64,000 nt of DNA from Ectocarpus siliculosus. Lineage: Eukaryota > Sar > Phaeophyceae > Ectocarpales > Ectocarpaceae. The notes beneath the pieces are model-generated. The model was given only the letters and a program-made list of their open reading frames with translations. It was not told the DNA's origin and ran no database searches. Below, in pieces: positions 18,957-34,373 of the stretch. The position numbers and the translations under genes were made by a program. The number at the start of each line of letters is the position of its first letter. The stretch's first letter is position 1. Location of the stretch: contig FN648498.1 of assembly GCA_000310025.1 (NCBI GenBank), positions 39,194 to 103,193 on the forward strand, given 5' to 3'.

Positions 18957-21900
18957 CTATAAAAGGCCCAGAAAGTTCATGGTTGCACAAGTTACACCTC
19001 CCCCGCAGGAGCGGTGGAGTTCTTGAACGAGAGCTTCTCTATGCTGCCCCTCCTCATCAGATTGTATACGCCCGGCCGCGACGTCGGCGTAGATGTAGCT
19101 TGAAACCTTCCTAGAAACCCATGACATCCTCTCTCGATCGGACATGTCGCTCTTGCTTCGGTGAATGTCGTCGATGACCCTGACGTTCGACGGCCCGGTC
19201 GCTCGACTTACAGCCGTGTACAGCCAGTGGGCGTCAGCGTGACGGTGCCGGGCCTGATGTATGATCAACCTCCCTTCCACTGTACGGCCTTGGACGGCGT
19301 GTACGGTACATGATCCAGGGGGGTCGAACAACGTTTCGGCCACTGCTCGACAAAGGGACGTCTCCCCTAGACTGACAGCACCATCAAAAACGCTTGCGAC
19401 AACGACCTCGTCTGCTGATGAACGGGTGATGCTGTAGGTGTGATTCTTGTGAACCTTGCCCGGGTTCCCGAGGTCTCGGTATTGCGCACCGACCACCGTC
19501 TGACACCCCAGCCCATCCCGGTCCCCAGCTTCGTCGCACTCCAGCAAACCTCGAAAGGCGTGGAATCGAGCACATTCTCTTGTGTACGCGAGGTGAAAAT
19601 CTGAAGTGCTAGGATTGTCAGCCTTTGGGCAATCACCACCAAACCTCTCGATGGCTCGAGTCTGCGCCTCGTGACTGTCGTTTCCTGCAGCCAGAATGTG
19701 CAAGAGTCCATCATCCATCTCCACCTGGTCTTCTACAGTTTTGTCTCGCTTGCGCGCGAAGACATGGAAGCACGTGGGGAAGGCTTTTTCGAGAATGACC
19801 CTCCTGTCAATGTTGTCCCTGCTAGTCGACATGCCGCTGCTATCGCAAACGGGCTGGAGTTGATGCATGTCATACGTCCCGATCACGTGCGTACCGCTGC
19901 TATGGGCAGCCGCCAGGATCATGCTTAAAGTCCGGAGAGGCATATAAGCAGCTTCTTCGATGATGATTACGTCGACCTTGAGCGTTCGTATCGATCCCGC
20001 CGTCTTCTCACGTAAGAATCATCACTCAGGTAGAATCCGAGCTGGTGGTCAGCGGTCTTTCCACTCCACCCGGATGGCAGATTTGTGTAGGACGTGCGTA
20101 GGCTATTGGTGGGGGTCAAGACTAGGCCTGTTTCGAATGTGGCCGTAGCAGTGCGGATAGTGCAGTAAATTTTCCCGGCCCCTCCATGTTCTCCGGTCAC
20201 AGCGCAGACGATCCTTGAACCTTGCGGAGTCAACAAGCCGCGGAATAAACTTTTTAGTTTCGATGGTGACTCGGCCTCGCATATTTCCGGCCACAGATCG
20301 CGCTTGGTGTTCTTGCCGAGACGACGCCAGGCATTGTGCGCGCCTTCCATCGAATGGAAGCATGCCCCGATGCCATCCCACAGCGGGACCACTAAAAACG
20401 GGGGGTTTTAATGGGCAAGGAATTTTCGTCATTGCCGGAGGTAACGCATTTAGCGATAGCTTCACCACGATGCCTTCGAACACCCTCCTCTCCAAACATA
20501 GCGGGTTCTTCAAAGCCGGTTCAATTTTAAGAGTGCCCTGGAGTTTTTTCGCCGCCGCTATACAAATGGTCGAAGCGGAGTATCATCTTTTCTTGTACTG
20601 CGTTACACTGGTAGCTAAAGTCGGACGCTCCGCACGATGCGAGAGCGTTCCACGCCTCCAACACTCGCAATCGAGTTTTGTCGAGGATGAGGGTTCCTAA
20701 CGCCCAGAAGCCATCTCTACAGGTCCGTTCTGCGTCGAAACAAAGGTATGCATCACTCGATTCCAAGGTCCCCTTGTCCCGTCCGAAGCTCGGCCTTGAC
20801 ACGATCGACTTCGCACAGGACAGGGACGATTTTTCCACCCACAGCCGAAGCCTCGTCACTGCTCGTAACCATGACGGCATCTATGCTGTACGCGTATCTC
20901 TGCTGCAACATACCGCTGGCCCGCACGAATATTCCTTTTTTGAATCGGCGTGCACAGTCGGCATCCTCGAGGAGGGGATCACCCAGCTCATGCGCGAGCA
21001 GGTCTTTCACTAGTTTGGGTATGTGGCACCTGCTGACCGTTCTGCATGGTCGCACGAAGTGGGTGACTCTATGGCGAGGCGCGTTGTCGATGAGGTCGAG
21101 GTAACGCTTGTAGTTTCGACCGAAGACGGGCGTCACGTCCGCGTTAAGGATTACGTCGGATTCTTCGAGCGCGTCCAGATTTATGATGTACAGGGTCCAA
21201 TCCTCGATGTCTTGGCCATCGAATTCCTCCACCTCATCCATGTGGCCGAAGACGGGCACTGTCTCCATGTCCATATGAGCCGCCGTGTGTGCCCCATTGA
21301 TGTCGCATTGCCAGTCTTCCCTCCCGTAGGAACTCCCGGACGCGTCCACTGCTCCGACGATCGGCCCCCGCCAGCATACTTCAAGGAGGGCGAGAAGAGA
21401 CTGGCGGTACTGACTCGACACTCGAAAATCCAATACACCGCGGTAGAACTTAAGACCCAGCGCATTATGCAGCTCGATCAATCGTGTTGCCTGATCGGGC
21501 TCGAAGTCATCGGGATCGAGCCCACCTATGCTCGCGCTGCACCAGGTTCGGATGATTATGCCGTGCGCTGGTAAGGACAGTGAATTCCAGCGACTGTAGT
21601 TCGTGAGTTTACCCTTGCAAAAGACCCCAGCGAGGTGTAGGTGGGGCATGAGTTCGTCGAGGGCCGTTCCTGGAGGCGCGTACCACGTCTTGCATTCTGA
21701 TACCTTCCTCCCATGCTTCCGCTTTTTTTCCACTGGCTGTCGGTTGTGGTCCCCCCCTGTTTGTTTGATGGCCATGATATCACTCACAATGTCAGCGACA
21801 CACGAGAAGGTCTTGGTGCCAAAACCAGTCGTATCTGGTTCCTCTTCTTCCTCGGTCATCACAGAAATTCGGCGGAATTTACGGTACGTTCGTACGCTGT

Positions 21901-24198: not shown

Positions 24199-24440
24199 CT
24201 ACACAGGTGGACGTCCATCCCCCTTCCCCAAAATGTCGGATGCCCGCGCCCCCTTGTGGAGACCTTGACAAGGTCGAACACCTTGGAGAAGACAACCAAG
24301 GCCTCGACAGGGGAGAAATCGAGGTATTTTTTTTAGGCCTTGGTTGTCTTCTCCAAGGTGTTCGACCTTGTCAAGGTCTCCACAATGGGGCGAGGGCATC
24401 CGACATTTTGGGGAAGGGGGGTCGACCTCCACCTGTGTAG
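24199..24440. repeat. Large imperfect palindrome, 106-bp arms and 30-bp loop
   Basis: The left arm 24199-24304 is the near-perfect reverse complement of the right arm 24335-24440. Both outer ends are CTACACAGGTGGA-type and both inner ends read AGGCCT. A transcript would form a very long hairpin. It could be a foldback or MITE-type element or a small-RNA precursor. No protein is encoded. Confidence 0.9.
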
Positions 24441-24977
24441 CGTGATGGTTTAGAGAGGGTCCAGCGAGGGAGCAACGGCAAAGAGCAACCCGACAGGGGA
24501 AACCGGGAACCCTTACCTCGACCATTTCGGTGGGAAGGCGTGTGCACTCGCTATCTCCGAGAATCCATTGGCGTAGATGTCTAGAGTCATTTCCCCTGTC
24601 CCTACCCGTGCGAATGCTCCACCGATCCTGAGCAGCAAGTGCAACCTGGGTGAGCTGGAGATGTGGATGTGCGGAGGAATTACTTAGTGGGCTCTAGAGT
24701 ACACTCTGCGGAGCCTCCTTTTTTCGTCTCCTAGCGAGGCACAAAGCAAGCACAGCAGAGCAGCAGGACAGGGGGGGCAGCAGGGCAGGGAGGTGAGTAA
24801 GCTATGACGTACCTCGCTTGATGTTGTTCGTGGTGGTGGTGGTGGCAATCCAGTAACTTTTTCGATGCTCGTCTAGCTGAGTTGGCGGCCGTGTCCCCGA
24901 GTGTGTACGCAGTCGTCACTACTGTCGTCCGGGTGGGACCTGTTCTTTGTCTCGTGCACGACACACAGAGGCAGCCG
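24441..24977. other. No recognised gene
   Basis: A short GTGGTG run lies at about 24830. Nothing else is supported. Confidence 0.35.
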
Positions 24978-25510
24978 ACAGCAGTAGCGAGGGCGCATAG
25001 GCGCAACCACCACAGAGAGGGGAGCTAGGCAAGGAGAGAGGCGGCGCAGAAGGAAAGGGATCGCAGGATCTAGCTTCGCCCGACGTACAACCGCGCTTCG
25101 GCAGACTACAAGGTGGGTTTATTCGCAGGAGCTTCGCTGACGCTGGTGATTTTTCGCAGACACGTGCAGAGATTAGCAGTGTACGAGATGACACGCACGC
25201 GGCAACCCTGGTGAAGATCGGTGCCTAGAGTAAGGGGTACCTGACAACTCGGCCAACAGCAGTGGCGAGGGCGCATAGGCGCAACCACCGCAGAGGGGGG
25301 AGCCACACAAAGAGAGAGGCGGCGCCGAAAGAAACGGATTATCGTATCTAGCTTCGCCCCGCGTACAACTCTGCAATATCCATAGACTAGAGGTGGGTCT
25401 TTTTTCGCAGGAGCTTCTCTGAAGCGGGCGTGCGTTCGCAGACACGTGCAGAGAATAGCAGTGTACCTGATGACACGCACGCGGTTACCCTGGAGAAGGG
25501 TACCTGATGA
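24978..25510 (+). repeat. Diverged ~280-bp tandem duplication
   Basis: The block starting CAGCAGT(A/G)GCGAGGGCGC (24978) and ending near GCGG(C/T)(A/T)ACCCTGG recurs at about 25256-25510, offset 278-282 bases. Shared stretches include GCATAGGCGCAACCACC, ATCTAGCTTCGCCC, CGCAGGAGCTTC and CGCAGACACGTGCAGAGA. It lies just upstream of the ROCO gene. Confidence 0.85.
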
Positions 25511-25824: not shown

Positions 25825-28800
25825 ATGGCACCGACCGATCGTGACGTACTGGTAGCCCTCTACAACGCGACCGATGGACCTAATTGGAAGAACAAGACCA
25901 ACTGGGACACAAATGCCGATCTGTCGGACTGGCACGGGGTCAAAGCCGACGACCAGGGCCGCGTGGTGAAGCTGTCTCTAAGCGCGAACAAACTCCGAGG
26001 TATTTTTTAACCTATCCTACGGACATTGCGTGTCGCTCTCGTGCGATGTTTTTTTACCTTTCCCAAGAATTCGTTGATCGAAGATGATCCTTCCATGACA
26101 TTGTCTTTCTGGTGCGTCCCCGCGTTCTGCACGCGGTCAACGCCTTTATGTATCCTCGCCGCAGTACCAGTACGCTGTGCGTACTATGCTGCTGTACTCG
26201 TGAAAGTTAATCGACACCTGAATACTCTGCCTTCTAGCCTGCTCCTTAGACACACGCCATCTGTAGACAATTCACAGCCGGGCACCTTTTCTTTTTATTC
26301 CCCGCTGAACTTGAATTCCTCTGCCACAGGTTCTATCCCGCCGCAGCTTGGAAACCTCATCGAGCTGAAGGAGATGCAGTTCAACGACAACCCCCTCACA
26401 GGTATTCATCTTTTCTCCAACTGAATTCCATGGATGAACGCTGCCGACATGTGTCCTGCCCACGAGTTGGCAGGACCATTGTTCTTGAAGCTTCATCGCT
26501 CGATATTCTTATTCTGTTTCTTGCGCTGCGCCGCTCTCCGCAGGGTCAATACCGCCGGAGCTGGGAAGCTTATCCCAGCTGAGGCTGCTAAAGCTTTACC
26601 GGAATCAGCTGAGCGGTGAGTCATATATTCATAGTACACTTTGGTATTTGCAACTTTCCGGACGAATCCCACCCACGCATTGGCAGGATTCATTCTGAAA
26701 TTTAATGGAGCAAGCAACAATGTAACACTTTCTCAGTATTCACTGCTTCTTCTTCAAAGCAGAGGTACTGAAGTGCTGTAAAGTGTCTTAGCTCCGGGGG
26801 GATGGGGTCTGCAAGCGGACGCGCACATCCAAAGTCAGTGAGGGGAGTAGCGAGCACCATTTTTCCCGGCTTCTAGAACACGCCTACTCACCGACGTAGT
26901 ACGCGGGCCAAAACCTACGGAGATCGATTATCTCGAAAATGAGAGCTGGGTAACTTGATTTTTATTTTCCTGTTGAACTCGTATTTGCTCTTTCGCTTGC
27001 AGGTCCCATCCCGCCAGAGCTGGGAACGCTCGCAGCACTGAAAAACCTCTCCCTTCGGGGAAACCGCCTATCTGGTGAGTTGATGTTCAAATTGCGGGAT
27101 GACTCCCGCCGAGGCGTGGGCGGGACAAGATGTGCGATATCGAACACCTAGAAACGACTTGTTTCTCCGGAATTCCAACAAGAGAATTACTCGCATTTCC
27201 ACAGGACAAATACCACCGCAGCTAGGAAATCTGCGCGCCTTGGAGACTCTCGCTCTCAGCGGGAACAAGTTAAATGGTGAGTCCCAGAAGTCGGACATGC
27301 AACTCTCTTATTGTTGAAGTTATCTGCGTGAACCCCGCCGATGCGTGGGTGCGTTGTTGTATAAGCCGAGCAAATTACTCTTATTCCCCGCTTAGTTCGT
27401 GTGGCACACGGTTGTTGGCCATGCGCACAGGAACGATACCGGAGAAGCTAGGGAAACTGACTGCGCTGGAGGACCTTTCTCTCAGAAACAACAAACTCGT
27501 AGGTGAGCAACCTCCAACGCTCGTACTGGACTTTAGGAAAAGTGTCTTACCCACAGTGGGTGGGGCAGGATCTACGGGATCGAATAGCTACAAACGATTG
27601 ATGTTTCCCCGGAATTCCAACAAAGACAATCGTTCGCGTTTCTACAGGACAAATACCACAGCAGCTAGGAAGTTTGCGCGCCGTGAAGACTCTCAAACTC
27701 AGCGATAACAAGTTACGTGGTGAGTCGAGCATGCAACTTTCTTTGACTTTTACAGGAGTGATACATGCATGAGTTCCGCCGATGCGTACGCAGGATTCAT
27801 CCTAATGCTTGATCGATACGTGGGGACTCACCGCTTATCTCGTTGAAACCAAGGTGGAGCTGCACTAGCCCTGAAAGCTTTCCTAGCTCCGGTGGGATAT
27901 AGCCTGCGACCAGAAGCGCAATACAATTCTAGCGGGCACTAAAACGATAGTTTTCCCGGCTCTCTACGTTGAAGATAGCGATTTGCGTAGAGTAGAGTAG
28001 CTTCTCGAAGCCGATGTGTTTCGTTGTGTTCCCCGCTGAATTCGTCTCTTCTTCCGCTTGCAGGTCCTATCCCGCGAGAGCTGGGAAATCTGCGACAGCT
28101 GCAGACTCTGTGGCTCAGCAACAATCAGCTCACAGGTGACTCTTTAAGTTTGGCAGTGGTTTCAATTTTATTCTCAAACTGGATTAACTGGATGCACGGA
28201 TTGACCCTGCCGATGCAGTGGGTGAGTAGGTGCGTTCTAGAAGCGGGGTGCTTTTAAGTATTCCTTTCTTCAAAAAAAGTCTGCGCTTGCGCTGCATGCC
28301 CCATCTTGCCGGAGCTTGGAAATCATGCAGCAATGTGGTCCCTTCTCCTTGGAGGCACCCAGCTGAGCGGTATGTCGTTCAGTTTACATGTTACAACTGT
28401 TCGCGGTATCATTTTTTAGGATGAATCCGGTGTGCGTGGGTGGGACACATGCATATGTCCTAGAAATATAAATTGAAAGAGCGGTCAAAGTCCAGCACCG
28501 TCTCTCGTCGCTGAGCTGGTTGCTGTAGAGGTGCAGCACCCACAGCTCGTTGAGAGCTCCCAGCTCCGATGGGATGGATCCTTCAAGCAGAAGAGTAAGA
28601 GTGTTACTAAGTTAGAGGGGAGTAAACAAAAGTGACCCCGGCTGTCTTGTTTCAATATCATCTAACTCCGTAGATCTTGTCCCGCCAACGCTTTCACCCG
28701 TGAGCTTGTTGTGGTGTCTACAGTCCCATACGGGATGCCTCCTGAACGAGAAGTGCGTAGAATTCCGGAATGAAATGGCGTCGGCTTTGGAGGAGAGTAA

Positions 28801-31800
28801 GTGAAAGAGCCGCAACTCGGCGTTTGAGCACCCCACGCTAGCACCCTTCGGCTCCTCCACCTTTGCTGTAGCAACACACGAGACGTAGTGGTTACTTAAC
28901 GTTCTAGTAGTTTTACTCAGTATTCTCTACTCTACCAGTAGGGTTTAGACGACCTCTTCATGTTCGACTGTCAATAGTAGATATGCATGGAATAAAAGGA
29001 GTTTGCAGCACCACCCCGCATCGGCACAAAAGAACGTGTGGCAGTAAGGAAGGGCCAAGACACCTCGACCGCTGAACGTGAAGACACTAATGGGGTATCA
29101 AGATGTCACGTGAGGATATATTGACATAACTCATACAACTTGAGACGCAGGAATGGTTCTGTGTCGCTTTGCAAAGACCTCCTTGAACTAAATCGTTCAT
29201 GCATGCCCGCGTTGGATTGGGGCTTGCAGAGATCCCCCCCGAGGTTCTTGAGCTGTGTCGGGAGATTCTAGGAGAGCCGTCGTGGCATGCAAACCCTTGG
29301 TCACGGCCGCCGTCGACGGTGCTGGAGTCTGGGTTCGAGAGGGCGCTGGGCTGGTGGGAAGACGTGAAGCGGTTTGGTGAGGGCAAGTCAAACAAGCTGA
29401 AGATGGTGCTCGTGGGCCTGGCAGGGGCCGGGAAAACCACCATTGTTCGCCACATGACAGGTAGGTCAGTCCCCAAACGTTCTGACCGCACGGTGGGCAT
29501 CGAGATCACAACGGACTGGAAGCCGGGAGATGAGGTGCCCCTGCAGGTTAGCGTCTGGGACTTCGCTGGCCAAGCGGACTACTACTCCTCCCATCAGCTG
29601 TTTCTGACCAAGGGTGCTTTGTTTCTGCTTGTAGTGGACCTCCATGCCTTTTCCAAAGAGATAGGAAGTGGAGTGGACAACTTTACCGACCCTCGTCGGC
29701 GTATCTACTGGTGGCTTGAGATGCTCCACATGCGTGTCCCTGGCGCGGCCGTAGCTCTCGTAGGGTCCCACGTCGACCAGATGGAGAGTGAGGATGCTCG
29801 CCAAGCCGAGACCCATCTTCACACCGGTGAGGCATCGTGGTTCTTTCGAGGACGAGTACCATGTTCTTTGGGCACATAACGTTACCCGTCACACGAGGCA
29901 CAGGATTGTTTAATGAACCGGAAAAACAGTGCAGTGGTAAATACTGAGCAAATTGTTTACCCTGGGAGCGTGGGGATCGTATTTCGACTCTCAACAGGAA
30001 GACGCCCACATACTGCAGACGGTTTGTGCTCTAGAGATTTTTCGATTTTCAAAAAGCGATGACTTGCGGTGGCGGTGTTCAACATGTCAAACCCGAGCGC
30101 TGTATGGCGTGTACATTCCACCGCCGATACTCGCTATTTTGTTCTGTGGTGTTGGAACAAACGCCCCTATCGAGCCTATCACATTGTACCCGCGTAGTTA
30201 GCGATCAAATTCCTCAACGAACGCACCCCGTTCTCTTTGGTCGGATAATGCTCGTATTCCTTCGCTCTGCTGTAGTTGTGAGCAAATTCATCAAGGATAA
30301 GGCCGGCAATGCATCAAGGAGGCAGAGTATTCGTTGCATCGATGCAGAGTCTACGAAACCAATGGAGGTTGATCATCTACGAGATGACGGTAGAATGGCC
30401 CCGCGGTCTGGTTCGAGTAGATTTACCGCGGAACCCTTGGTCCTCCATGGCAACGTCTTCAAGGTTTCTCTCGCCCCTACGAGCGTTGTCGAATTACGAC
30501 AATGGATCGTGAAAGCAGCGTCCGGACGAGAGTGCCCTACCGGGTTTAACTTCCCTGCCGTGGATCAGACCGTTTCCAAGGCTTGGATCGAGGCCTACGA
30601 TGCCATGGACGTTCTGAAGGGGACAGCACCGTGTGTGCTTTGGAGCAGAGCAGTCGAAGAGTTCCGTAGAAAGATGAGCGGAATTCCTCCCGTCGCCGGC
30701 GACGCCGGCAAGGTGCTGTTGAGAGCGATGCAGCACCGTGAGGCCGAGGGCGGCGTGCTGCTGTCGCTGGCGGACGACTCGGCACCTGTGGCGAGCGACA
30801 TGCTTCACCTGGACCCGTCGTGGCTCATCGAGCTGGTGAGGCGCTTGGCAGATCACAACCTTGTGGACAAGGACAAGAAGAAACGTGGATCTCTGGAGCA
30901 GGGGCTCCGTGTGTACGCCAAACGACAGGGCCTTGCAGCGGCGCCGCTCTTCGACATACACAAGTGAGGTGGCTTGAGAAATATGTTGCCGACCTAAGTT
31001 GTGTTCGTAGCAAATGTCGTCAGTCTATGGTGCCGTACGGCGACGTCGAATTCACGGCTACAACCATCAAGGCCCACTCTTGTGACCAAATCAGTTGTAG
31101 TGCGACAATCGCGGCCATCCCAATTTTTTCTTTCTGGCCCACACTTAGAGGTTCTCTCCGGGATGCTGTGGTCGGTCGAATTGGTGCACCCGAGTGCTCC
31201 TCGATGAAGATTGCATCATAGCCATCCCAATGACATCCAATAGACCTATAGACGGATTTCCTACGGGCTGAGGGCTCACGAGAACGCAGGAAAGGCAATC
31301 CTGATGATCTCGTGAGCCTAGAGCCCTTTTTTTCGAGGTTTCTCCGCCCGTTGACCTCGCCTCGAAACGAGACTTGCACCTACCGATAGCCCTGTGTTGC
31401 GAGGGCCCTCCCGGCGTGCCGCGCGCTCTCGGGGCAGACTGCGTGCAGCGCTAGCGAGGGCAGAAAGTCGCGTCTCCGACATCTACCATGGATCCACCAA
31501 TCACACCCCGATTTCTTGACAGTGCAGGCCACTCATACATACATTCGGCAAGCGGCTGACGTGGATTGTGCGTGTGCGCTGGCGTCACACCACACACCCT
31601 GCCACACACGACAACCAAGCCACCAAGTCTCCGCATGAGACGAGACAAAGTGCTCTACTGCTGTAGTGCGTCTCCCTTTTGATCCAGGCGAAAGGCGGGG
31701 GGGTTAGCGGCCAGTGTCGTGCGCACAGCTGTCTGCAAAACTACACCCGCCCGAGAAAAAAAAAAATGAAAGACGTTGTTTGTTCCTCCGTTTCATGGAT

Positions 31801-34373
31801 ATACTTTTTTTTTTCCCGGAAATATCTTCTGGAACCTACCGCACTTTAGTGTAGAGCGGCTACCGGGACATGCTCCGCATCTCACCCACCAACACACACC
31901 AACACACGAACTTCTACAGTCATCTGACTCCCAAAACCCTCTAGCAGAACATATAGAAATACTAGACTACTGCTGCTGTGGGTTTCCATATTTTCATAAA
32001 TCGGCAGAAAAAGTTGTCTGCTTTTCTGTGGTTTCGTGGTGCAAAAACTAAAAAACTACGATGTGGCCCAGGAGCTATTATTATGTTACGTAACCAACCC
32101 TATTGTCCTACTTTTTTCGTGGAAAGTGAACCTTTGTTTCTGAAAAACAAACTTCTTACTCCGAGCAATTAAATACTCTGTCCTCCGGCCGTCGCGTAAC
32201 ACAACATATGAATATAGTCATTGTGCGTCTCTGCTCTTCGAACAAACAAACAATTTTTTCCCTCTTCGCAGCATTTTTTCTTCGTAGCTCTCATTTCAAA
32301 ACTCCACCCGCACACACTTGCCATCGCCATTGAACCTACGAGCGTAGCGGCGACCGCGAAGCGGTACGCCGCGAAGCGCCCTTGTAGTGTTTACAAATGG
32401 GTCTAGTCTGAGCCCGGTTTCGCTTAACCCCAAAGCATTTCGGCTAGTGATCTCCTGAAATGCGCAAGGTGAGCTTCATGTTCTTGCTATTGGGCCGCAT
32501 CTTATCCAGTCTTGAGGGCTGGGGCTGCGGTGGTGAACCTATCCAGGTGCAAACGTTTCTATTGTACTGACATTCTCAACGCACCTTGCTCCCGCCGTAA
32601 ACCTATTCAACAGCGTATACTGTAGGTCTGGTCGTCTAAACCGGGCTTACCTCCGCTTCCTGTGGATGCACCGCAAAATTGAAGGCCCAGGACCAACGGT
32701 GGACCTCACCGACCCCGAGTTCGAGTCAATCGTGTCAACGATGGAGAGACTCTTGGTCATGTACACGGCCCGCGATGCGGACAATCTTGTGGTTCCGGCC
32801 CGTCTCCAAGAGTACGGTGATCAGCGTATCCCGGACAGACTGACGAATATGGTTCTAAAAATAGAGTGTTCGTTTGGTCAAGTCTACCCCCCACCAGGCA
32901 TAGTTGGTCGTTTCCTTGCCTGGTCAGCGCAGCAAGTTGCCGACTACGGCGAGTGCTGGCAGCACGGAGCGTTCTTCAGCTATAAATACCAATACGCGCG
33001 GTACGACGTCTTTCTGTATGAGTCGGAAGTCGAAGAGGCCCACCAGGATGGGACAGTGGATATGTTTGCTGGTCTCACATTGGGCATCCAGGGGCCACCA
33101 CCCCAGGCTGCAGAGGTTCTCGAAGAGCTGAGAAAGTCGCTGGAAAGCCTAGTGTCGGATTCAGCTTACGGATACCCTGGCCTCGTCGGCCCGATGTACT
33201 TCAGACCTGCGGAGGAAATCGAATCATCCCTACTTGTCCGCTTGGGCTCCGTCCTTGACAACCTGGGCAACGTCGCAGATCGGATGGAGGTAGTCACTGG
33301 CAGGGTGGAGGTAGTCGCAGACAGCCTGGAGGAGACAGTGCGGAAGCTCGGTGGAATTGTAACCCAGCTGTTGGAACAAGATTTGCTGCCCGCGAGCGAT
33401 GAGCAGAGCGCGTACCCGCGCCTGGTGCTCGTGCGGCCGGAGCTGGAGACCGCGGAAGATATGACACACGAACGGATCCAGCGTGCGGGTTGGGACAGGT
33501 GGACGAAGGCCCTTTCCGAGATGGGGTTTCATAAGTTTCGAGTCCACTTCCTCTGTGGGCATGACCTTTCGGAGGTCCCCTGTGGTCCAGGGGGACGTGG
33601 CTTTCCCATCAAGCACCCTAAAGATTGGGTCAAACAGTGGCTCCCGCTAATGCAGGTGACCGGAAGTATGATACGTAACTGCTCTCCAGTCCATAGCGAT
33701 AGGGCTGTGTACTTCTTAGACGTTGCTTCCGAGCACCACGGTGTCAAGGCATTGATCATTATGTGTTTCGTTTCTTTCCGCTGTGGGTCGGTGTACTGTG
33801 GAGCTACGCCATAAAGTATCGCATCGTTGGCCGTCCCTTATTTTGGTTATCACGCGTGTAGTAATCGCCTTGCTTGTTCCCCGCCGTCGCCCCTAATGAC
33901 TCGCCCGCCTCGTTTTTTCTCAGGTGTCGCTGTGGATGTTGCGGGTGGCCGTTGGCGCCGTGTCAAACGTTGACCTGCCCCTGAACAAAGTGCTGGGTGC
34001 TTTCGTTATGGCAACAGGTGCTGAGCTATTGGAGGGTGTGGGTAAGGTCCCCGATAGGATCAGTAGTGCTGCACTCCCCGTGTTCAGCGAGGGGGCGACA
34101 CGAGCAGAGATGGATGGGTTTAAAGACTTGCGGGGCAAATCTTATGAAGGCCTGTGCAAGTTCATGCGGGATGTGGAATCATCACCTCCTCAGTGTTTGT
34201 CAGGGTGTCTTCCCTGCCACCGCACACTAGCTGTCGTCGACTGGAGGGATCACATGGTTCAAGTGAGGAACCCCAGCACGGGGAGGCGTGCTTGGGTGCT
34301 GAAAACGAACGAAAAGGCATTTCTTCGCGAGCACGGAGGCGCTCCGGCAACGGCTGGAGCCCCGGTTTCGTAG
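25825..34373 (+). CDS. LRR-ROCO (LRR-Roc-COR) GTPase, 12 exons
   Basis: The model is 25825-25999, seven 72-nt LRR exons (26330-26401, 26544-26615, 27003-27074, 27205-27276, 27431-27502, 27648-27719, 28064-28135), then 29230-29826, about 30348-30963, 32626-33655 and 33924-34373. All introns are GT-AG and phases agree; the sum is 3372 nt, or 1123 aa. Residues 1-58 form the LRR cap (VALYNATDGPNWK). Residues 59-226 are plant-type LRRs (GxIPPELGxLxxLxxLxLxxNxLxG). The Roc domain (from 227) has P-loop GLAGAGKT (289-296), DFAGQ (337-341) and a GSHVD G4-type motif. COR follows (from about 460; YPPPGIVGR). A heptad-like stretch lies near 830-890. ROCO proteins are large multidomain GTPases; in brown algae they are proposed pathogen receptors. 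The start codon is typical of the family. The 30348 acceptor is the least certain edge. A non-coding exon may end upstream at 25812 (CCACAG). Confidence 0.88.
26737..26808 (-). pseudogene. Inverted, degenerate LRR exon
   Basis: The minus strand shows a good acceptor (CGCTTGCAG) followed by a frame reading PIPPELRHFTALQYLCF, clearly an LRR cassette. The second half has lost the NxLxG end and the donor site. It lies in the intron between the second and third plus-strand LRR exons. Confidence 0.75.
27832..27903 (-). other. Inverted LRR exon with intact splice sites
   Basis: The minus strand shows GGTCGCAG, then exactly 72 nt, then GTGAGTCC. The frame, entered in phase 1 as in the plus-strand cassettes, reads GYIPPELGKLSGLVQL and HLGFNEISG: a complete LRR without damage. 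It lies in the intron between plus-strand LRR exons 27648-27719 and 28064-28135. In the present orientation it cannot be spliced into the ROCO mRNA. Confidence 0.88.
28298..28369 (+). pseudogene. LRR exon with destroyed acceptor
   Basis: A 72-nt stretch in the correct phase reads PILPELGNHAAMWSLL and GGTQLSG and ends at a usable donor (GCG then GTATGT). The acceptor position reads CTGCAT instead of CAG, and conserved Leu positions have drifted. It is thus an LRR cassette no longer spliceable, left in the intron before the Roc exon. Confidence 0.75.
28509..28580 (-). pseudogene. Inverted LRR exon with damaged splice sites
   Basis: The minus strand reads GSIPSELGALNELWVL and HLYSNQLS over exactly 72 nt: a full LRR. 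The acceptor is AAG (TGCTTGAAG) instead of CAG, and the donor has AC in place of GT. Only the splice signals are lost. Confidence 0.82.
28690..28760 (-). pseudogene. Inverted LRR exon fragment with internal deletion
   Basis: The minus strand has CAGGAGGCATCCCGTATGGG near the start and HNKLTG-type coding (ACAACAAGCTCACGG) followed by a GTGAAA donor-like site, but the middle of the LRR is missing. It looks like a third minus-strand relic in the same intron. Confidence 0.5.
28761..29229. other. Last part of the pre-Roc intron
   Basis: No further LRR cassette is found on either strand. It ends with the acceptor GGCTTGCAG at 29229. Confidence 0.5.
30964..32625. other. 1.66-kb intron of the ROCO gene
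   Basis: It is bounded by the donor CACAA/GTGAGG (30963/30964) and the acceptor ACTGTAG/GTCTGG (32625/32626), joining in phase 2 to restore a Lys codon. It contains an imperfect hairpin (31266-31322) with arms ending in GGCTCACGAGA, and one TACTGCTGTAG motif near 31656. No other exon is seen. Confidence 0.7.

Follow-up and report, generated by a model that had tools for sequence, protein, structure and literature searches.

A ROCO gene with LRR exons on both strands

The window analysed here is a stretch of 64,000 nucleotides of the Ectocarpus siliculosus genome (contig FN648498.1, positions 39,194 to 103,193) and it carries a ROCO gene on its plus strand. The first coding exon (25825..25999) supplies the ATG and an N-terminal LRR cap (N-cap) and ends in a phase-1 donor, with the frame open into the LRR exons. 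Seven 72-nt LRR exon cassettes follow at 26330..26401, 26544..26615, 27003..27074, 27205..27276, 27431..27502, 27648..27719 and 28064..28135 (cassettes 1 to 7), each open and flanked by AG and GT, as an earlier note on this DNA had claimed. Within the window the unit around cassette 6 is 83% identical to that around cassette 4 over 139 nt. The Roc GTPase domain exon (29230..29826) lies after the array and has a phase-compatible acceptor and a donor inferred by eye. Its domain was matched by PF08477 (E 1.1e-16, within 29250-29870), and the ATG exon, seven LRR exons and Roc exon give a single open frame when joined. The earlier placing of the cassettes in a Roc GTPase gene is supported. Pfam searches for a COR domain gave no match in 30278-30967, 32537-33811 and 33900-34370. 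In standard usage these exons are correctly called "phase 1"; the same exon structure is termed phase 2 in the main text of Teng et al. 2024 (PMC11378527). With exon length and phase constant, cassettes can be added or lost with the frame intact, and copies are present on both strands, in agreement with the earlier note.

Cassettes were scored with an exon model using a cut-off of 11.3 bits; the controls, in which 23 LRR loci were each shuffled once and reversed once, reached 10.3 bits at best. The 11 cassettes accepted in the window score 15-55 bits, and chance is thus a poor explanation for them. Three are on the minus strand. The one at 27832..27903 (42.4 bits; YIPPELGKLSGLVQLHLGFNEIS) is fully intact, with AG, 72 open nucleotides and GT. 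That at 28509..28580 (54.6 bits) is open but its donor GT is now AC, and that at 26753..26806 (26.4 bits, model positions 3-56) is truncated and unspliceable, with splice sites and frame broken. A fourth minus-strand element at approximately 28690..28760 is probably an antisense relic; its translation, read by eye, ends in NKLTG followed by a donor, and its exon-model score is below threshold. Four minus-strand cassettes had been described previously; three stand above every control, the fourth is reduced to a sub-threshold fragment, and a single one is spliceable. The dead plus-strand cassette reported with them is present at ~28298..28369 (HMM match 28308-28369, 15.0 bits) and has lost its acceptor. 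The N-cap exon has 67 matching places across the genome (E <= 0.001). Membership of the minus-strand cassettes in a gene on the opposite strand was set aside, since this 67-place list shows only the array's own sense-strand N-cap in the window and in nine young array stretches, a check whose reach is this type of first exon.

LRR cassettes across the genome

In 23 LRR loci of the E. siliculosus genome the exon model found 186 cassettes in sense and 108 in antisense orientation. The cassette reservoir that had been attributed to the window gene is real, and it belongs to a genome-wide pattern and not to a single locus. Nine arrays were labelled young, a label assigned after inspection of the data and within one genome, and in these AG, GT and an open frame are retained by 71/76 sense and 50/61 antisense cassettes. 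Over 13 other loci 91/99 sense cassettes are intact against 13/44 antisense ones, which shows that antisense copies decay. In local alignments, window units match their closest relatives at about 67-83% identity, while other loci share units at 95-100%; judged from sequence, the window ROCO gene is one of the system's older arrays. The orientations of successive cassettes (++43, --25, -+33, +-30) follow permutation expectations (41.4, 25.0, 32.2 and 32.4).

Exon shuffling of LRR-ROCO genes with hypervariable residues 14, 16, 18 and 19 is described in the main text of Teng et al. 2024 (PMC11378527). Among 41 pairs of young-array units these concave-face residues differ at 0.132 per nt, compared with 0.018 in the flanks. 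In 15 antisense/sense pairs, 17/25 changed codons fall on the four hypervariable sites, and the pairs bear the signature of coding selection.

Exon units and a palindromic junction

The cassettes are parts of larger units. Each unit consists of half an intron, an LRR exon in the middle and another half intron (median 246 bp), and both ends bear a short inverted half-site with a shared 8-nt end, CRTNGGCG. Where two units abut, the half-sites form a palindromic junction whose consensus reads TCCCGCCNAYGC up to the centre and RTNGGCGGGA beyond it. This junction is the main finding of the analysis; the earlier reading of the locus had recognised the cassettes and overlooked what lies between them. 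In the window, junctions occur at 26454..26475, 26667..26688, 27104..27125, 27333..27354 and 27774..27795, with centres between 26464 and 26465, 26677 and 26678, 27114 and 27115, 27343 and 27344, and 27784 and 27785, respectively. A degenerate copy with one additional central base is at 26886..26908, and another, centred near 28215 (28205..28227), was seen in the pattern scan only and lies outside the window's set of six sites.

The nine young arrays hold 114 junctions, none of them inside an exon; a single shuffled control had no junction at the chosen threshold. Among the 130 gaps between young-array cassettes, 100 have one junction, six have two and 24 have none. Junctions are sparser elsewhere, in 6/10 gaps in the window and 36/105 in other loci. 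One or two extra central bases are present in 22/114 junctions (A4, C5, G5, T6, plus CA and TA), so joining is sometimes inexact. The mixture of bases follows no P-nucleotide rule, and hairpin-type addition was rejected. When the halves of each site were tested for symmetry, some positions showed a weak excess, and junction density correlated weakly with the antisense share (Spearman 0.44, p 0.052, 20 loci).

The full-site pattern has 32 matches in the genome (25 places; control 0), all at LRR loci by position, an assignment that was checked for the place on C20. Contig C234, reached through a search with a half-site motif, carries an LRR array missing from the N-cap list. A looser 14-nt half-site pattern gave 43 matches, of which 30 fall at LRR loci and 13 away from them (control 16); the place on C68, one of the 13, had no similarity to LRR loci by blastn. 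Half-site matches on C122, C6 and C25 have no LRR cassette within 1.1-1.4 kb by the exon model, and scattered insertion outside arrays was not encountered with the exact patterns, these cassette-free half-sites being the matches off LRR loci. A generic mobile repeat was rejected as the source of the junction because the three specific patterns match LRR loci, isolated cases apart. The match at C12:2121283, outside the three places checked for cassettes, has a Roc-like match 3.8 kb away.

Changes of neighbour at the palindrome centre

Half-unit pairs at least 97% identical have different neighbours in 61/63 cases (38 direct, 23 inverted) and the same neighbour in two, with the caveat that the pairs are not independent. 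Across the 61 swapped pairs, identity on the unit side is 0.97-1.00 from position 2 outward, and on the other side it is near the baseline for unrelated sites from position 2. In most cases the switch to a new neighbour comes at the centre of the palindrome.

Recent copies (>=92% identity, >=120 bp) number 146, of which 72 are inverted and 124 are between loci. In 219/283 cases their ends come within 15 bp of a site (null mean 50.5, max 67 of 200), a score that is partly circular, as the motif was derived from copy boundaries. With a stricter site set and one count per distinct boundary, only 81/185 end clusters are within 15 bp of a site, a figure that stands without a null. The array on C234 and the base-level profile are better tests than the scoring of boundaries. 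Under the stricter set, 24/283 ends are inside exons and 52 are elsewhere, indicating that other exchange occurs too, and the exchange away from junction sites is probably ordinary homology. Two gene pairs have stayed collinear at the start of their arrays: L024 and L026 share 1.2 kb at 92%, and L013 and L023 share 1 kb at 90%.

The antisense cassettes had been interpreted as inversion products, a term that suggests flips in place. Adjacencies between named unit families, which cover 61/137 units, are all distinct (32/32); among them no neighbour pair recurs and no in-place inversion between conserved neighbours was seen. Together with the 124/146 copies between loci, the distinct adjacencies fit relocation or copying in random orientation better, and relocation is the more likely origin of the antisense cassettes.

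Proposed mechanism and alternative explanations

Most joints fall in the middle of one and the same short palindrome, and this points to a site of cutting and joining. We consider it probable that the genome holds a common pool of LRR exon units which are exchanged at this site regardless of orientation, and that only sense units are spliced into the receptor. DNA would be cut or exchanged at the palindrome centre and the unit ends then joined; since the site is symmetric, units could be joined in any combination and either way round. With junctions in introns and exons equal in length and phase, a sense unit would add one receptor repeat and an antisense unit would be silent, leaving with the intron and staying in place until its next move or its decay. 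The window ROCO gene would be an older array of the same exchange system. As the exchange is read from an assembled genome, it is at least germline (evolutionary).

A fragile palindrome could also explain this with no dedicated enzyme. The junction would extrude or stall forks and break at its tip, and end joining or template switching primed by microhomology would then connect it to any other half-site. Neighbour changes exact to the centre and an orientation order equal to permutation agree with such breakage, the 1-2 mixed extra bases in 22/114 junctions resemble end joining, and no new enzyme is required. However, many sites have only a short, imperfect inner palindrome, and an exact centre in 61 pairs is sharper than priming anywhere along the half-site predicts, which leaves fragility a possible but doubtful explanation. 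The inverted end common to 5' and 3' sides, the discrete unit length and the duplicative spread between contigs would also suit non-autonomous elements of a TIR-transposon-like kind (MITE- or introner-like), which have short terminal inverted repeats and which a transposase would insert into the middle bases of junctions already present. We think this unlikely, as off LRR loci the three specific exact patterns match the cassette-free places on C122, C6 and C25, plus C12:2121283, and the looser pattern has 13/43 matches elsewhere (control 16).

That the minus-strand cassettes are dead relics, left by old inversions through ordinary ectopic recombination with the junction as inherited intron sequence, agrees with the two of three detected in the window that are broken and with the poor survival of antisense copies over the 13 other loci. 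It is already contradicted for the young arrays, where 50/61 antisense cassettes are intact; five antisense copies match a sense copy at 120/120 flank bases, neighbours change at the palindrome centre, and overall we regard such an origin as very unlikely. Misjoining of near-identical units in assembly is scarcely credible: many units are >95% identical and a single assembly was used, but misjoins follow shared repeats and by reasoning would make no motif-placed unit ends, and the diverged arrays of the window, L022 and C20 are built in the same way.

A dedicated nuclear enzyme might recognise the palindrome TCCCGCCNAYGCRTNGGCGGGA, cut its centre and move LRR units, either way round, from one receptor locus to another. 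Such a system would be an exon "shufflon" of a eukaryote, and it might be active within an individual's life. We put this forward as speculation and think it rather improbable. Were it true, the enzyme acting at TCCCGCCNAYGCRTNGGCGGGA would give a brown alga a recombining receptor repertoire.

Comparison with other recombining systems

Diversification of receptors by recombination has been proposed for brown algal immunity since 2012, and Zambounis and colleagues reportedly described exon shuffling in brown algal LRR-ROCO genes in that year. The window gene shares with the shuffling LRR-ROCO genes one LRR per 72-bp exon, a constant phase and a Roc GTPase. In bacterial shufflons, segments flanked by inverted recombination sites are inverted in place by a linked Rci recombinase and occur in both orientations. 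The algal arrays resemble them, in sequence only, in having inverted sites between segments (106/130 young-array gaps have a palindromic junction), but different contigs hold copies of the same algal units, the compared adjacencies show no inversion in place and the enzyme is only postulated. Lamprey and hagfish VLRs likewise diversify a receptor from a pool of LRR cassettes, which enter one gene by somatic copying guided by short homology and have no splice sites of their own, whereas algal cassettes are complete exons joined in introns, most with AG and GT. MITEs and introner elements are short, intron-creating units with inverted ends. The algal units are also short and carry terminal inverted repeats (the 8-nt CRTNGGCG), but they bear a coding exon and their full-site matches are confined to LRR loci.

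Receptor genes of this brown alga are built of small interchangeable units with one recognition-repeat exon each, and exon movement blind to orientation is possible without harm to the reading frame. With a defined junction and a centre-exact change of neighbour, the recombination idea of algal immunity becomes testable. The main text of Teng et al. 2024 (PMC11378527) notes that neither a somatically recombined locus nor a site-specific recombinase has been reported. Both-strand cassettes, discrete units and a palindromic centre-exact junction were not found in a term search of it, and they may have been mentioned in the 2012 work. A wider literature search, as far as the sources were accessible, found no description of such palindromic junctions. 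The same main text states that repeat exons of brown algal NB-ARC-TPR genes are also shuffled. TPR_10 matches in this genome, seen by eye among 150 scored of 669 candidates in clusters presumed to be NB-ARC-TPR, keep almost entirely to a single strand within each cluster.

Sense and antisense LRR cassettes

An earlier note described seven spliceable plus-strand LRR exons in the window's ROCO gene. All seven were found, each 72 nt long, bounded by AG and GT and open, and together with the ATG exon (25825-25999, the N-cap exon) and the Roc exon (29230..29826, plus strand) they form a single open frame. An exon model trained on strict cassettes from 23 loci (cut-off 11.3 bits, best control 10.3 bits) placed 11 window cassettes above every control, eight on the plus strand, one of them dead, and three on the minus strand: a truncated copy (26753-26806), an intact one (27832-27903) and an open one without a donor (28509-28580). 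Four minus-strand cassettes had been claimed, of which the fourth is a sub-threshold fragment. Among 51 proteins found with the Roc exon, the named relatives belong to Scytosiphon promiscuus (79%, best-scoring), Hapterophycus canaliculatus (73%), Ectocarpus fasciculatus (82% across 54% of the query length) and Laminaria digitata (65%, best-scoring), which marks the source as a brown alga.

The genome in which the window lies at C483:39194-103193 (189.5 Mb, 492 contigs) contains 144 matches to the window's cassette region, with both strands represented within many clusters, and 67 matches to the N-cap exon, which served to anchor the sense strand. In 23 loci (the window, 19 loci at 10 kb and three shorter) the exon model found 186 sense and 108 antisense cassettes, of which 156 and 46, respectively, passed the strict test. 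Nine arrays with recent copies (L009, L011, L013, L023, L024, L026, L030, L031 and L032) were grouped as young post hoc, with the data already seen. A splice site at each end together with an open frame was present in 71/76 sense and 50/61 antisense cassettes of the young arrays (Fisher p 0.059), in 91/99 and 13/44 at 13 other loci, and in 7/8 and 1/3 in the window; these counts omit three of 294 cassettes, all sense, which had too little flank. Antisense units thus decay with age yet are mostly fresh in young arrays. In two older arrays, L012 and L022, intact sense and broken antisense cassettes partly alternate, a pattern that would follow from amplification of a head-to-head pair with selection keeping the sense half alone.

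Units abut at a palindromic site

Sequence blocks shared between and within loci are mostly 200-330 bp long, carry one exon each and are 93-99% identical; they occur in both orientations and their neighbours are usually unrelated. A palindrome was discovered at their ends. Read from its centre outward, each half-site has the consensus CRTNGGCGGGA (178 half-sites from 89 sites at 8 loci), the inner 7 bases having belonged to the selection pattern. Units end in CGTTGGCG.GTACG on the exon-5' side and in CRTCGGCGGGATTC on the exon-3' side, with a median length of 246 bp (87 units). A matrix scan detected 114 junctions across the nine young arrays, compared with 0 for one shuffle at the chosen threshold (0 or 1 at the others). 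Young-array gaps shorter than 600 bp (n=130) held one junction in 100 cases, two in 6 and none in 24; in the window 6/10 gaps held one, and at the other loci 36/105 held one or two. The six window junctions found by matrix are joined by a degenerate one near 28215. No junction fell inside an exon in the matrix scan of young arrays, window and other loci.

Half-units with 97% or higher identity over 60 nt had an unrelated sequence across the junction in 61 comparisons (38 direct and 23 inverted) and a matching one in 2; for those at 93-97% identity the sequence across the junction was unrelated in 69, the same in 3 and intermediate in 3. On the unit side of the 61 swapped pairs identity was 0.97-1.00 from the second base onward, and on the other side, again from the second base, it was close to that between unrelated sites, variable positions 2, 4 and 9 included. 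This places the exchange point of these pairs at the palindrome centre. Within arrays there were 146 recent copies, 72 of them inverted and 124 lying between loci. A junction was no more than 15 bp away for 219/283 copy ends, where 50.5 would be expected (maximum 67 in 200 randomisations). Counting against junction-bound ends, only 81/185 distinct boundaries were near a recognised site, a figure that has no null for comparison, and a stricter site set left 24 ends in exons and 52 elsewhere. Collinear stretches at the array starts also remain in two gene pairs, L024 with L026 (1.2 kb at 92%) and L013 with L023 (1 kb at 90%). The order of orientations could not be distinguished from permutation. 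Eighteen unit families with at least two members cover 61/137 units; named families adjoin one another in 32 places, and no pairing recurs.

Exact patterns of the site match mostly at LRR loci. A 19-nt full-site pattern had 32 genome matches (25 places; reversed control 0), by position all at LRR loci; an odd-looking match on contig C20 lies among decayed LRR cassettes in both orientations. The 3' half-site had 43 matches (control 0), 41 of them by position at LRR loci; of the others, that on C122 had no cassette and that on C12 had a Roc match 3.8 kb away. Two of the 3' half-site matches led to an LRR array missing from the N-cap list, L034 (C234:43400-44900), with six cassettes in both orientations and junctions within 1.5 kb. 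L034 is a young both-strand array on a small contig, and the match spacing suggests that some 1.8 kb is duplicated in tandem. The 5' half-site had 21 matches (control 0), with no cassette at those on C6 and C25, and a looser 14-nt half-site had 43 against 16 in the control, 30/43 at LRR loci. By contrast, clusters of TPR_10 matches judged by eye (150/669 candidates scored) had nearly all their matches on a single strand, with one clear exception (C6:3474238) and one possible (C25:254771).

Imprint of selection in antisense copies

The four hypervariable codons differed at 0.132 per nt, against 0.018 in the flanks and 0.016 in the remaining exon, across 41 pairs (33 units) whose flanks were each 95% or more identical. 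Hypervariable codons made up 17/25 of those changed in antisense-sense pairs (n=15, no unit entered twice; p 3e-8 against 4/23), 20/29 in sense-sense pairs (n=14) and 11/21 in antisense-antisense pairs (n=8). Antisense copies thus bear the marks of selection on coding sequence, which is what one would expect if units switch orientation faster than their sequence decays. In one comparison, L011 8784 with L013 3226 (antisense), the flanks are identical at 120/120 positions and the exons differ by three amino-acid changes, two at hypervariable sites. These changes fit strong selection; raised local mutation of the hypervariable codons may also account for them.

Mechanism and published record

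Compared with one another, the loci show discrete units with mostly centre-exact joints, in either orientation and with copies common to several loci. We infer that DNA is cut, or strands exchanged, at the palindrome centre; a symmetric site would make every unit end compatible with every other, which would explain the random orientation. Candidate agents are an enzyme, breakage of the palindrome itself and a transposase that uses short inverted ends as its substrate. Extra central bases at 22/114 junctions incline us to end joining rather than conservative recombination.

The arrays share 72-bp LRR exons and shuffling with the system of Teng et al. 2024 (PMC11378527), who describe both, along with alternative splicing and LRR-only reservoirs. 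Those authors note that neither a somatically recombined locus nor a recombinase has been reported, and a term search of their paper found none of opposite, antisense or orientation.

Other features of the window

Downstream of the Roc exon, inside or beside the ROCO gene, lies a high-copy repeat (31241-32386) with a full-length copy 97% identical at C29:221957-223104 and many further copies, probably a recent mobile-element insertion. Upstream of the gene are a MITE-like 106-nt inverted repeat (24199-24440; arms 95% complementary, 30-nt loop) and a tandemly duplicated segment of about 280 bp (24974-25498; copies 85% identical). A 353-aa open frame on the minus strand (18960-20018) has a weak UvrD_C_2 helicase match (E 4.3e-5, below the curated cut-off) and adjoins a 633-aa open frame with no Pfam match; the two perhaps form a helicase-bearing mobile element.
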